DNA of 64,000 bases, from NCBI GenBank assembly GCA_034401795.1, contig CM067369.1, positions 92,246,579-92,310,578 of the forward strand. Direction: 5' to 3'. The notes under the pieces are model-generated. The model saw only the letters and a list, made by a program, of their open reading frames with translations, did no database searches and was not told the origin of the DNA. Positions 4,085-61,814 of the stretch are shown piece after piece (position 1 is the first letter of the stretch; each line of letters starts with the position of its first letter). Both the position numbers and the translations under genes were made by a program. This DNA comes from Chaetoderma sp. LZ-2023a (Eukaryota; Mollusca; Caudofoveata; Chaetodermatida; Chaetodermatidae).

Positions 4085-4464
4085 AAAAAAATGTTAATTA
4101 ACACATGACGTCATAATCGGCTACGTTGCGTGCATGATGACGTCTTGATCAATTACGTCATGAAAGGCGTAGCTAAGTTAGTCACGAACTTTTAATTGCT
4201 GACTGACTAAGCGTTGTTGTACGAATTGTATGTCTTTACTATTTAATAAACACGCTGTTGAATGTTTTGAAACTAATTTGACCGCAGCAGCAGCAGCATC
4301 TAGCCAAATTAGTTTCTAAATGTTCAACAGTTTGCCTGTATAGTTGTCTGGAAATTTATGGTTAGGGAGTTCAGGGATCGATCGATCCCAACACAGACGA
4401 AGTGTCGGTGTAGCTTAGCCTTAGCTAAAGATGGACGGGGCATAGCTAAAACTGGATTCCTCCA
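4085..4464 (-). mobile_element. MITE-A copy, antisense
   Basis: Near-complete copy in reverse orientation: CRE-like motifs at the left (TGACGTCA at 4107), ACTATTTAATAAACA, a central hairpin with a CAGCAGCAGCAGCA loop expansion, GATCGATCGATCCCAACAC, GGGGCATAGCTAAAACTGGA and the terminal CCTCCATT. It abuts a second, oppositely oriented fragment. Confidence 0.85.
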
Positions 4465-4494
4465 TTGATTACTCGTGTAACCCTTTAAACCTTC

Positions 4495-4713
4495 AATTCA
4501 CAGATTATCAATTTCAAAATAACTAGGGCCTATACACGTACGCGGTCTTTATTAAATAGTAAAGACATATAATTCGTACAACAACGCTTATTCCGTCTTC
4601 AATTGCGCGTTCGTTAGGTACTTTTCCGCGTCATGAATGGCGTCATTGATTATGATGTCATTCCACACGTCACGTTAATTATGACGTCATATGATGGATG
4701 TAAAGGTCTATTG
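4495..4713 (+). mobile_element. MITE-A right-half fragment
   Basis: The right half of a sense copy, starting near TTATTAAATAGTAAAGACAT and running through the CRE-rich end to AAAGGTCTATTG. With the copy just upstream it forms an inverted pair. Confidence 0.8.
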
Positions 4714-4729
4714 TGTATTTCTTATCACA

Positions 4730-4980
4730 GAGCTGAAACGTGTTTGAGTAAATATTCTTATAACAATTTTACTAAAAATTGTTGCTCGCTATATAGCAGC
4801 AACAACATTCCTTCAAATTATTTGCGAAATAATCAGCAGAAAATGCAAGTGTCACTAGCTAATATTTTGAAAACGACATGACTGAAAATCGTTGCCGCAA
4901 CAATATTCAATAATATTTAACCAAATTGTTCTCAAAATAATCAGCAATTCAATGTAGTAACATTTTCTGATATGTCTAGC
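4730..4980. repeat. Diverged hairpin-type repeat shared with 6105-6725
   Basis: Contains GTTGCTCGCTATATAGCAGCAAC and segments (GCTAATATTTTGAAAACG, ATTTGCGAAATAATCAGCA, ending ATGTCTAGC) that recur in altered form on both sides of the TTAA-flanked MITE near 6.2-6.7 kb. It is probably an older MITE family related to MITE-A. Confidence 0.5.
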
Positions 4981-5630
4981 AATACACCTTTCCTGTATTG
5001 ATGTATTTTGGGAAAATACCTTCCCACAATGCATCGCTCACAACACGTCTGGCGGATAAAAGCGTCATCCTATGCGCGAACAATATTACTTTGCTATTAG
5101 GTTCAGATTTACTGTACGTTATGCCGTTTATATACGAGGGATTACTGATGCTGATACCGATACATTTATTACATCCAGATGTTGTACAAAGTATATGGGG
5201 TTATATACAAATTTCCCCCATCCATCTATGAACAGGCAACACATTTTTATAATCATTATTATTACCATACATAATTATTAACATTAGTATTATCATTAAC
5301 GCCATCAGCCCTGCGTTCCGTAGAGGAAACAATCCAAAACGCTCTGCTAATCCGTAAACTATTGACAATCTGCTGTTTCGCATTAAAGATGCGCACTCAC
5401 ACCAGAGTGCCCGAAACAAAACTATCCAACCTGCCGCATACCTCCAGAAGCTCAAAGAGTAAGATCATAATATTACTAAAGTCATACATTATTTGAAGCT
5501 CGTGCAAATTTCTAAACATTTCTGTATTAGTTTTTATTTATTTTTATGTAAATAACTCGCAGTAAAGTTTACACAAAAATATATAAATGTTCAGAAAATC
5601 GGCTGAGCTTTCCAATTGTGTATGCCTGCA
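4981..5630. mobile_element. Element E, third copy, interrupted
   Basis: Two blocks (about 4981-5130 and 5465-5630) match successive parts of the ~600-bp element seen at 27.0 and 29.3 kb (GGGAAAATACCTTCCC; then ACATTTCTGTATTAGTTTTTA). A ~330-bp stretch of unknown origin separates them, so this copy was itself invaded. The right terminus is not recognisable. Confidence 0.65.
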
Positions 5631-5725
5631 TGTCAGATCGTGTGCTATGGGCGGACAAGACCTACTCGCCTATGGAAATATCCTTCACGCTACATCTCGA
5701 TTATGTATCTGACACAGGCGTAGGT

Positions 5726-6104
5726 AATGAACATTTCCAGTTTTAGCTATGACACCCCACCCCGATCTCCATCTAAACTCCACCCAGACAATCGGTCTTG
5801 AACTCCCTGACTATCAATTTGAAGAAAACTATACGGGTAACCTGTTGAATATTTTGAAACTGATTTGGCTGAGTGCTGCTGCTGCCTATGGCAGCAAAGC
5901 GCCCAGCCAAATTAGTTTCAAAATAAGCAACATCATGTTTATTAAATAGCAAAGACATACAATTCGTACAACGTGTCGGACTACTAAGCGTTAAAGACGG
6001 ACTATTTCGAATCATTCATGACGTCATGATTATGACGTTAGAATATACGTCACTTGGTTGATTATGACGTCATATGATGGATGGATAAACTGGAAAGGTC
6101 CATT
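5726..6104 (+). mobile_element. MITE-A copy, sense
   Basis: Full-length copy from AATGAACATTTCCAGTTTTA to ACTGGAAAGGTCCATT. The central hairpin (about 5837-5936) pairs GAATATTTTGAAACTGATTT with AAATTAGTTTCAAAATAAGC. It carries two TGACGTCA sites. The splice-donor-like motif is decayed to ACGGGTAACC. Confidence 0.9.
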
Positions 6105-6186
6105 GTACATACATTTGTTAGCTCACGAAAATGAAAGCCGAGCTAGCACTGATTTTTCCAAGTGTTTGATTAAGCTGTTGCTGCCT

Positions 6187-59206: not shown

Positions 59207-59214
59207 TAGGGTTA

Positions 59215-59800
59215 ACCAATCCTGAAATATATGCTGCAAAGTAATGTTAAGTGCAAAAACGTAATGATGAAATACAGAGTTATGTACCGAGGTCAGAGTT
59301 CCTTTGACCTTTGACATGGTGACATCGGTTTCTGAATGTCACGCCTCTGCATATAAGCTATCATACACCTAGGTTTGGTTACATTTCGATAAAACAATCC
59401 TGAAATATATGGTAAAATCTAAAACTTATCGCAATAACATAGCACTAAAAAAAAGGCCCTTGACATTTGACGTAAAGACGTCGTTGCCTGCTTCGTCGTG
59501 GTATGGTCAATAGTCCATCATAGACTAAGTTATAAGATATAAGGTCAAACAGAATGTACAGAAAGGTTAACACCAAAAATAAGAGCAGAGTTCAAAGGTT
59601 AAGATGACATTGATCTTTCACCTCGTCTTATCCATGTACGCAAGCCGCTTCCTCTTGGCATAGCCAATCGTGTGTCTAGGTATGGGATCAAGCAATTCTG
59701 AAATATAAGAAACAAATATAATGCAAAAGCTGAATACTAAAAGAACAGATTTCAAAGGCCAAAATGTCCTTGCCTTTAGACTTAGTGATATCCCTGATAG
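59215..59800. repeat. Diverged tandem repeat with CTTTGACCTTTGACAT motif
   Basis: At least three imperfect units share AA(T)CCTGAAATATATG, AAAAGCTRAAYACYRAAA, TTCAAAGGYYAARATG and CTTYGACMTTTGAC, spaced roughly 180-250 bp. Confidence 0.6.
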
Positions 59801-59904
59801 AATAAAATATAAAAAATACAATAGCCTACAATAAGAAAAAGCTCGTAGGAGCGTAGGAGCGCAGGAGCGTAGGAGCGAACATCTGGAACGTTCCACACCT
59901 TCAA

Positions 59905-60870
59905 TAGATTTTAAAATTTACTTCTAAAACCTATCATGAGGCGAAACGAAAACCGTCTCTGTTATGACTGACTTATATAATTATCGCTAGCATACCTCCC
60001 TTCGAGCGCTATCAAGGTCAGTTAATAACGGAGTAGTGATTTTAAAATATAAGGGTAGACCAAAGGAACTTCTAAAACCCAGTATGGTACTGAATCGAAA
60101 ATTGGGCTCGGACTTATGAAGATAGTGGCCCATCGAATACTATTCACAAATTTTTAGCTAGATTCGTTCATTAATAACTGAGGCGTATTAATTTACAATC
60201 TAAGGGTGGAGCGCCCTACTAAAACTCATCAGGGTAGTGTTACCCATAGTATATCACTTTATCTCAAGTTTGATCAAGATCTGTTCCGCAGTAAGGGAGG
60301 AATGTCGATTAAAAAATTTAATGGAGGGGCCCACTACTAAAGCGCAGCATAGCAGTCAATAGAAAATAAGGCTCCGTTATGATGTCAAGAGTGATGCATA
60401 GAATATCCTTCTTACATTTCAATAAGGAGAAATAGCGATTTTAAAATTTAAGGTTTGGGCACCCTTCTATAAGCCACTAGGGCAGTGGATCGAAAATCCG
60501 GCTCCGTAACCATGTCAAGACTTACCCATAGAATTTCCCTCTAAGGTTTTATCAAGATGCACTCTTTAACAACGGAGGTGTAGCGATTTAAAAATTTAAT
60601 GATGTGGCAGGATGGTGTGCCCTTATAAATCCCATCAGGGGTGATGAATCGAAAATCGGGTTCCATAATGATGTAATTGCTGTAAATATTTACCCCTAGA
60701 ATAACCTCTTCATGTTTTATCAGGCTACATTTATCATGAACGGAGGAGTAATGATTTTAACATTTAATGGTGGGGCGCCCTACTAAATCCCTGCAAGGCA
60801 GTGAATAGAAAAGTGGGCTCCGTACTGATGTTCGAACCTACGCCTAGGATAGGTGTTTGCAGTTTCAGCA
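59905..60870. repeat. ~120-165-bp tandem satellite, seven units
   Basis: Unit starts (GATTTTAAAATTTAATGGTG or variants) at about 59909, 60038, 60190, 60308, 60431, 60586 and 60752. Each is followed by GGCGCCCTACTAAAACCC, GAATCGAAAATCGGGCTCCG, CCCATAGAATATCC and AACGGAGGAGTAG. Units are well diverged. No coding potential. Confidence 0.9.
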
Positions 60871-60927
60871 AGATTGGATGAAATCTGAATGAGTAGTAAA
60901 AAAGAAATAAATATAAGTTCACACACA

Positions 60928-60958
60928 ACAACAACAACAACAACAACAACAACAACAA
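60928..60958. repeat. (AAC)n microsatellite
   Basis: Ten AAC units, next to a small CGGATC-containing segment. Confidence 0.95.
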
Positions 60959-61257
60959 GGTTTAGAGATCCTTTCCGGATCTAGAGACGTAACATTAAAA
61001 GAGCTGAGTTGTCAAAATTCAAGATTCAAAATTATTTATTTGCATATTTAGTTATGAATGTCAAAAAATTACATCAACGAATGCAAGCGTTATGAAGTGG
61101 TGGACTCCTCACATAGAAACATTAATTGAAATATGTACATTAGACAAGACCGTTATAGGTTCATAGGTCAAATTTAATCCTGAACTTTGACTTAGTGGCT
61201 TCCCTGACAGAAAGTCTCCTTCTCTTGATAGAGGCAACGCCGTGCATGTTTGATTTG

Positions 61258-61814
61258 AATGGAGGATTCCAGTTTATCCTTCAACCACACGAGGTCATAA
61301 TCAACTACGTCACGTGTAGGATGGCGTCATAATCAAATACCCCATGAATGGTGTAGTTAAGTTAATCACGAACGCTTAATTAATAATGGACTAAGTGTTG
61401 CTAATTTTAGACGCTTAAATTGCGTACCTCAATCTAATGAAACGAAATAAATCTTAACATATGATGATTTCATTCCATATAAATAAATTTCGTAGTTTTA
61501 GTTGTGAATTTGAATTAAGAGCTCGTGCCTCTAATTCAATTTGACAACTTAAAAAATTATATTAATTCATACGTTATGAAATCATCATATGCTAAGATTT
61601 ATTTCGTTTCATTACATCTAGGCACACAATTTAAGCCTCTGAAAGTATTTAATTTTAAACAATTTTATTTTCAACCATTCTGCTGTGAATATGCACCTTT
61701 AAAAAGTCCGTCAAGTGTACGAATTGTATGTCTTAACTATTTAATAAATATGTTGTTGAATATTTTGAAACTAATTTGCTGCCATAAGAATGGGCGTGAC
61801 ATAACTAGAAATGA
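61258..61814 (-). mobile_element. MITE-A copy, antisense, split by another hairpin element
   Basis: AATGGAGGATTCCAGTTTAT to GGACTAAGTGTTGC (61258-61401), then resumes at CGTCAAGTGTACGAATTGTA (about 61708) through the hairpin's left arm to ATAACTAGAAATGAG. The interruption is a separate inverted-repeat element. The hairpin's right arm is missing. Confidence 0.83.
61406..61645. mobile_element. Hairpin element with ~68-bp arms nested in MITE-A
   Basis: The left arm 61406-61473 (AATGAAACGAAATAAATCTT) is complementary to 61576-61645 with few mismatches. A second inner stem (AATTTGAATTAAGAG and CTCTAATTCAATTTG) fills most of the loop, so almost the whole element folds on itself. Confidence 0.85.

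Follow-up and report, generated by a model that had tools for sequence, protein, structure and literature searches.

The stretch of DNA considered here (the window, 64 kb in length) comes from contig CM067369.1 of the mollusc Chaetoderma sp. LZ-2023a. It holds a receptor gene and many copies of a short repeat, MITE-A, that resembles a miniature inverted-repeat transposable element (MITE). The gene lies on the plus strand and encodes a rhodopsin-type G-protein-coupled receptor (GPCR). The original prediction called it a neuropeptide receptor gene; the receptor stands, and the neuropeptide part goes as far as the first recognised exon, which among solved structures is closest to the orexin receptors. 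At their right ends the repeats carry perfect copies of TGACGTCA, the cyclic AMP (cAMP) response element (CRE) bound by the transcription factors CREB and ATF. The features are collected in Table 1.

The window contains 32 perfect TGACGTCA octamers, compared with a mean of 0.70 and a maximum of 3 in 100 shuffles that preserve dinucleotides. This rules out chance as the origin of the excess and agrees with the 30 to 35 that had been predicted where about one was expected. As had also been claimed, nearly all (28 of the 32) lie in the right ends of MITE-A. They are spread over 20 copies, and the statement that copies usually hold two or more was too strong: 8 have two, at a distance of 32 bp in seven of them and of 46 bp in the eighth, and 12 have one. 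Six more pieces reach the octamer region but have no octamer, one of the six being incomplete. Octamers outside MITE-A were predicted in element E, a second repeat with two copies, at 27.0 and 29.9 kb, and each does contain one (27049 and 29897); the other two (47450 and 47536) are outside any right end, in sequence that the model matches only weakly and with its middle part. The range originally assigned to the phenomenon, 4085 to 61814, misses the first octamer, at 2142. The guess of about ten copies within the GPCR gene was roughly right, there being 17 MITE-A pieces and 14 right-end octamers between 12112 and 38020. Both the excess and its placement in the right ends of one repeat family are confirmed.

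These counts rest on a profile built from 17 window copies, so that copies elsewhere are judged against a window-weighted consensus. After weak hits and those confined to the centre were dropped, 37 pieces were kept from the window. An unselected sample of the genome (200 kb, in 20 stretches of 10 kb, L009 to L028) provided 62 more, making 99 in all.

The pattern extends over the whole genome. A count of TGACGTCA in all 2.44 Gb gave 398,896, about ten times the 41,418 found for the reversed octamer, a control that lacks CpG, so that the window shows in dense form what holds for the genome at large. The paired signature TTATGACGTCA-N18..24-TTATGACGTCA has 14,212 matches (7168 + 7044) and its control has 0, bearing out the idea of a transposon-like family that scatters perfect CREs. 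Among the matches listed, 84 of 100 double sites are exactly 32 bp apart, these being sites selected for intact CREs. The 26 fixed letters of one subfamily's right end match 2025 + 2048 times, and a long right-end match finds 1617 + 1681 copies. The density of octamers is 500/Mb in the window, 164/Mb in the genome, and 240/Mb in the sample, which thus over-represents CRE-rich DNA. Of the 48 octamers in the sample, 22 fall in MITE-A matches, several others are in repeats, and the rest are unplaced. An amplified site is one over-represented genome-wide and found largely inside transposons, and that is what is seen. MITE-A has helped to scatter TGACGTCA across the genome.

MITE-A is about 395 bp long. 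Stop-to-stop frames that lie mainly inside its copies are at most 112 amino acids (short frames were left out of the domain scans), and since the element has no long open frame, it was presumably moved in trans by a separate enzyme. Its tips are terminal inverted repeats; those of the alpha subfamily read AATGGACCTTTCCAG...CTGGAAAGGTCCATT, and beta and gamma have other tips. Classing into subfamilies succeeded for 46 of the 99 pieces (24, 14 and 8). Tip type matches between the two ends in 23 of 24 full copies. The tips therefore evolve together, which points to one enzyme that recognizes them. The left end has two units of about 21 bp, TAGCTAWGCYCCRCCCA, with cores like GC or CACCC boxes, and the centre is a palindrome with arms of about 45 bp. 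At the right end, two full TGACGTCA, CRE1 and CRE2, are set 32 bp apart in an array of GACGT half-sites, and alpha sometimes adds a third. All three subfamily consensuses retain both CREs at this distance, while the last 30 bp or so differ between them; one base of CRE1 in the alpha consensus is a majority below 60%. Comparing alpha with gamma, the left units are similar to each other and the right arrays likewise.

I propose that the array of CREs at the right end is an end-specific motif for the mobilisation of MITE-A and not an enhancer specific to the receptor, a reading that I consider just about probable. The array would be a motif recognized in cis, most simply by the transposase, a binder suggested by analogy with piggyBat. 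Selection for copying would hold the octamer intact in source copies. Inserted copies do decay, mostly from CpG to TpG or CpA, and the perfect CRE of a fresh insertion is lost at about the rate of any other CpG. In this genome-wide process the GPCR locus is one dense patch. The support in hand consists of the one-sidedness of the array, its conservation in source copies, neutral-looking decay in the sample, and the co-varying tips.

Consider first the conservation. The non-CpG columns of the octamers, 12 in number, diverge by 0.080, as against 0.208 for 236 others (p=0.0008). Divergence is 0.139 in the flanking block and 0.131 in the central palindrome; octamer and flanks differ with p=0.08, and in the sample alone the values are 0.079 and 0.172. 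Shared non-CpG changes are depleted in the octamer (0.069 versus 0.197 elsewhere) and private ones are not (0.012 versus 0.011; in the window alone, 0.043 versus 0.033). Since the depletion affects shared but not private changes, constraint acted in the source copies, and none is visible after insertion.

Then there is the decay of CpG. In the unselected sample, the CREs retain 29 of 60 CpGs and ten other CpG sites in the element retain 151 of 316 (Fisher p=1.0), the consensus CpGs in the unstable columns 192, 270, 281 and 302 being excluded. A wider set of such other CpG sites gives a retention of 176/342 in the window. The original prediction had held that decay of the CREs at the rate of the rest of the element would speak against their regulatory use, and in the sample it does. 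This sample-based comparison takes the place of one with a matched CpG octamer of MITE-A (consensus AATTCGTA, anchor TTTATTAAATAGTAAAGACATAC-N8-CAA). CRE2 can be located by its flanks only, at 4,073 places in the genome. In the first 100 listed, all within the initial 42 Mb of contig C1 and reduced to 91 by collapsing one tandem array, 38 keep CG at the centre, 44 have TG or CA, and 27 are exact. Changes in CRE2 show the decay pattern of methylated CpG. A survey of CREs (PMC1796609) describes CREB binding as open to inhibition by CpG methylation and lists TGATGTCA as a weaker site.

Several results, given in this and the next three paragraphs together with the alternatives they bear upon, weigh against the proposal. 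The interval between CRE1 and CRE2 is exactly 32 bp in 42 of 54 copies, which ranks it just 110th of 363 equal intervals, and a special constraint on the spacing is not supported. The central palindrome, whose function is not known, is likewise conserved above average. Perhaps the CREs are passengers: the source copies chanced to hold octamers, and recent expansion accounts for their number, with no function for the element or its host. A passenger would be expected to have such unremarkable spacing and, as in the unselected sample, to decay in a neutral-looking way once inserted. It is harder to see why three diverged subfamilies should have retained the octamers while the neighbouring sequence changed, or why shared changes should be depleted within them, and I find this account quite improbable.

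The manner of insertion poses a second problem. The usual cut-and-paste enzyme is expected to leave a target-site duplication, but none of length 2 to 12 was detectable in 14 copies or in 24 full copies (z no higher than 2.1 in the flexible test, and 3.2 at the best of the fixed offsets). No transposase family appeared among 19 distinct frames compared with Pfam (four also with NCBIfam), several of which are GPCR exons, nor did an autonomous partner of MITE-A appear in the scanned frames, no genome-wide search having been made for either. The flanks show a pyrimidine before the left tip (35/43) and a purine after the right tip (41/51) and no further preference. MITE-A is short and non-coding, has a high copy number and terminal inverted repeats, and fails the classical test of duplication; it is MITE-like by strict definition and not a classical MITE. 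Other classes fare no better. The piggyBac superfamily is rejected for want of a TTAA consensus in 43 left and 51 right flanks. An 8-bp duplication as in hAT matches at 5.25 versus 4.88 in shuffled pairs (z=2.1), far below expectation at such divergence. The Spy group of PHIS transposons agrees only in the absent duplication, there being no preference for AAATTT in the flanks, and Helentrons and their HINE derivatives do not fit the inverted repeats at both tips or flanks that lack a TT or T-rich site. One split copy (45364-46250) does have a flank duplication, of 62 bp (45301-45368 and 46247-46309; score 49 versus 20 shuffled), perhaps a target duplication of exceptional length, perhaps the result of rearrangement at a later time. 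Among the other 20 of the 21 copies in this test, four barely attain the 95% level of shuffles, and their matches are short and fail to abut both tips. A search of the sequence at hand for paralogous empty sites left one usable case, the nested copy at 12962-13321, and that one is ambiguous, part of the host repeat being missing there.

Third, CREs in the window are unusually intact. Their CpGs are retained in 43 of 51 cases, versus 145/229 for other CpGs of the window (p=0.005) and the sample's 29/60 (p=0.0001). For CRE2 alone the comparison is 22/25 with 38/91 among the flank-anchored genome matches listed (p=3e-5), and private CpG changes number 1/102 in window CREs versus 21/646 elsewhere. 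This is what would be seen if copies in the receptor gene had been adopted as cAMP-responsive sites and retained for that reason, as the original prediction had it. The window, however, was flagged for its number of CREs, so their retention is biased upward. Moreover, its other CpGs are also better retained than those of the sample (145/229 versus 151/316, p=0.0004), so that an influence on the whole region, for instance low methylation in the germline, could suffice. The window has an observed-to-expected CpG ratio of 0.83 and the sample one of 0.74, and the window is possibly a less methylated region. With window and sample taken together, private CpG changes are 2/223 in CREs versus 14/1439, and the difference seen in the window is gone. 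Nor is there any enrichment specific to the GPCR gene: retention is alike inside and outside its span (23/27 versus 20/24), and the bins of 10 kb in the window (the last of 4 kb) contain 0 to 7 octamers, the 20 unselected stretches 0 to 8. Seeding of cAMP-responsive control in the gene is thus not supported, and I regard it as very improbable. Judged by their sequence, the copies at the locus look like ordinary members of MITE-A, and the locus no longer needs a special explanation.

Finally, the constraint may come from the host. The octamers would have been retained in source copies because a basic leucine zipper (bZIP) factor, CREB/ATF or a germline CREM-like protein, bound them in germ cells. 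Once bound, the factor would make the element's chromatin accessible, or would have driven the transposase gene of the parent element, and several unrelated repeat families would be using this handle. Conservation that is stronger at TGA..TCA than in the flanks fits a bZIP factor no less well than a transposase, and repeat families besides MITE-A do carry CREs. When MITE-A is masked, the sample still has 25 TGACGTCA versus 2.1 expected, making it the top palindromic 8-mer after TA repeats; with similar contexts collapsed, there are 18 distinct contexts versus the same 2.1, first of 5,695 8-mers tested. By eye, at least two of the 18 (L018 1759, L024 2259) look like unmasked ends of MITE-A and several belong to one family, so that a conservative count is about 10, though other 8-mers were not curated in the same way. 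One family of carriers (L021 4274; L019 3659 and 3780; L021 1580 and 1701) has up to two CREs, 121 bp apart, and resembles a retroelement promoter. At L021 4274 its CCAAT, AP-1-like, CRE and TATA motifs follow one another much as in a promoter, and the family has heat-shock-like TTCTAGAA motifs along with CCAAT and TATA boxes. A carrier in L015 sits upstream of a long open frame, at a distance of about 0.9 kb; a relative in L018 has a reverse-transcriptase frame about 3 kb away, and a small palindromic repeat (L013 9264, L022 6531) is a carrier as well. Counting against the host factor is the manner in which CRE2 is lost, mostly (44 of the 53 changed centres among the matches listed) from CpG to TpG or CpA as in methylated CpG, methylation of the octamer being said to abolish binding of the factor in work of 1989 cited in PMC1796609. 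MITE-A, in addition, has no evident gene to express. I consider the host factor rather unlikely as the cause of retention, yet the carriers outside MITE-A make it a strong rival to the transposase. Some fresh copies may be bound by CREB/ATF.

A broader version can be imagined, in which several unrelated mobile families independently took up the CREB/ATF octamer because a bZIP factor of the germline makes mobile DNA accessible or drives it. I think this doubtful. The families concerned would be a reverse-transcriptase element, a repeat that resembles a promoter, a short palindromic one, and an element that has terminal inverted repeats but leaves no target-site duplication. If convergent uptake were true, it would have given the genome its some 400,000 CREs, which the cAMP signalling of the host must ignore, silence or use. 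The pattern outside MITE-A predicts involvement of CREB, ATF or CREM in the expression of germline transposons, and the convergence of transposons on one host factor becomes testable. Whatever the cause, about 400,000 perfect CREs, some tenfold the reversed-octamer control, provide a natural test of the response of a conserved signalling factor to a flood of possible decoys.

To return to the proposed role in mobilisation, there is a known system with some of its features. The left end of piggyBat, as described in PMC11707139, has three imperfect palindromes, the first of which was seen with two C-terminal transposase domains bound to it as a pair, and the right end has none. MITE-A is like piggyBat and piggyBac in its palindromic subterminal motifs, which in piggyBat too are repeated and at one end only. 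It differs from them in that its ends have no TTAA consensus and have other tips, and binding by a transposase would be expected only by analogy. The Spy group, as presented in PMC4482050, is of the cut-and-paste type and leaves no target-site duplication, but it favours insertion within AAATTT, unlike MITE-A with just its pyrimidine on the left and purine on the right. The Helentron-derived HINE/DINE-1 elements are, in the account of PMC4067079, short and non-coding, with palindromic inverted repeats and no duplication, and they have at times been misannotated as MITEs. According to the same source, they have their 3' repeat some 38-60 bp in from the end and go into T-rich or TT sites; MITE-A, in contrast, has inverted repeats at both tips and no preference for TT.

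That MITEs can multiply a transcription-factor site is already known, and what is seen here is in an animal and with a different site. In the Brassicaceae, E2F sites were amplified mostly by MITEs, about 85% of them lying in transposons of several superfamilies (Henaff et al. 2014, as cited in PMC12595863). Most MITE-borne E2F sites lie far from genes, and binding by E2Fa is reported (review PMC12595863). The two cases are alike in that a transcription-factor site was multiplied by transposons, as that review relates it for E2F. They differ in that the present one concerns a CRE in an animal genome and is known from sequence alone; furthermore, 22 of 48 sampled CREs are in one family and the rest in various contexts, and the element fails the duplication test for MITEs. 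A search by title and abstract of the open-licence literature found no account of CREs spread by such a transposon family.

Table 1. Receptor exons, MITE-A pieces and octamers in the window (octamer starts in parentheses; the octamers are TGACGTCA)
Feature	Position	Strand	Remarks
Open frame with GPCR exon (7tm_1), first recognised	12112..12486	+	closest PDB sequence: orexin receptor type 2
Open frame with GPCR exon (7tm_1)	32604..32882	+	
Probable last transmembrane exon (7tm_1)	37715..38017	+	E=0.0035, below Pfam cut-off
Representative full MITE-A copy, both CREs	24954..25341	+	profile match, model 2-397
Left-end array of 24954 copy	24972..25013	+	approximate limits; two ~21-bp units TAGCTAWGCYCCRCCCA, GC/CACCC-box-like
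Central palindrome of 24954 copy, ~45-bp arms	25081..25176	.	self-complementary antisense match, model 133-228
CRE1 octamer of 24954 copy	25275..25282	+	
CRE2 octamer of 24954 copy	25307..25314	+	32 bp from CRE1
MITE-A right-end fragment	2061..2181	+	1 octamer (2142)
MITE-A copy	4100..4467	-	1 octamer (4106)
MITE-A right end	4548..4701	+	1 octamer (4682)
MITE-A copy	5725..6106	+	2 octamers (6019, 6065)
MITE-A copy	6759..7143	+	1 octamer (7071)
MITE-A copy, GPCR span	12483..12900	-	1 octamer (12564)
MITE-A copy nested in another MITE-A copy	12962..13321	-	no octamer
MITE-A copy	15443..15804	-	1 octamer (15518)
MITE-A copy	18716..19107	-	1 octamer (18749)
MITE-A copy	19130..19525	+	2 octamers (19456, 19488)
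MITE-A copy	21497..21890	+	no octamer; aligned one is an artefact of a small insertion
MITE-A copy	22530..22923	-	no octamer
MITE-A copy without left tip	23157..23509	+	1 octamer (23468)
MITE-A right end	25982..26061	-	2 octamers (26015, 26047)
MITE-A piece, model 83-349	26059..26301	-	no octamer
MITE-A copy	32850..33239	-	1 octamer (32883)
MITE-A copy	33724..34131	+	1 octamer (34058)
MITE-A copy	34491..34887	-	2 octamers (34523, 34555)
MITE-A left part	42240..42562	+	
MITE-A left part	45365..45587	+	
MITE-A right part	46043..46247	+	2 octamers (46176, 46208)
MITE-A copy	46446..46802	+	2 octamers (46732, 46764)
MITE-A copy	48040..48445	+	no octamer
MITE-A copy, two pieces	50160..50453	+	1 octamer (50382)
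MITE-A copy	50527..50925	+	2 octamers (50853, 50885)
MITE-A left part	51891..52178	+	possibly parted from 59102-59209 by ~6.9-kb insertion
MITE-A right part	59102..59209	+	1 octamer (59169)
MITE-A right end	61258..61383	-	no octamer
Octamer, element E	27049..27056	.	
Octamer, second copy of element E	29897..29904	.	
Two octamers (47450, 47536) outside MITE-A right ends	47450..47543	.	

Other features of the sequence deserve mention. The roughly 6.9 kb (52178-59102) between the left and right parts of what is possibly one MITE-A copy has transposon-like frames on the minus strand (53372-56699), for which Pfam and NCBIfam gave no convincing family. Palindromic repeats with TTAACCC-like ends are found at 18034-18268, 30677-30920, 38849-39080, 39261-39470 and 62596-62837, most copies having the core CTGGCTCG...CGAGCCAG, and no 8-mer listed for the genome sample is more enriched than CTGGCTCG. 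Upstream of the first recognised GPCR exon, and near each other, lie long arrays of simple three- and nine-base repeats (CTA, ATGATAATG, GTT), at 8597-8916 and 9581-10284. Elsewhere in the genome, at 110-136 kb of contig C1 (L001-L008), several TGACGTCA recur at intervals of about 1,035 bp or close to multiples of it, in what resembles a CRE-bearing tandem array.

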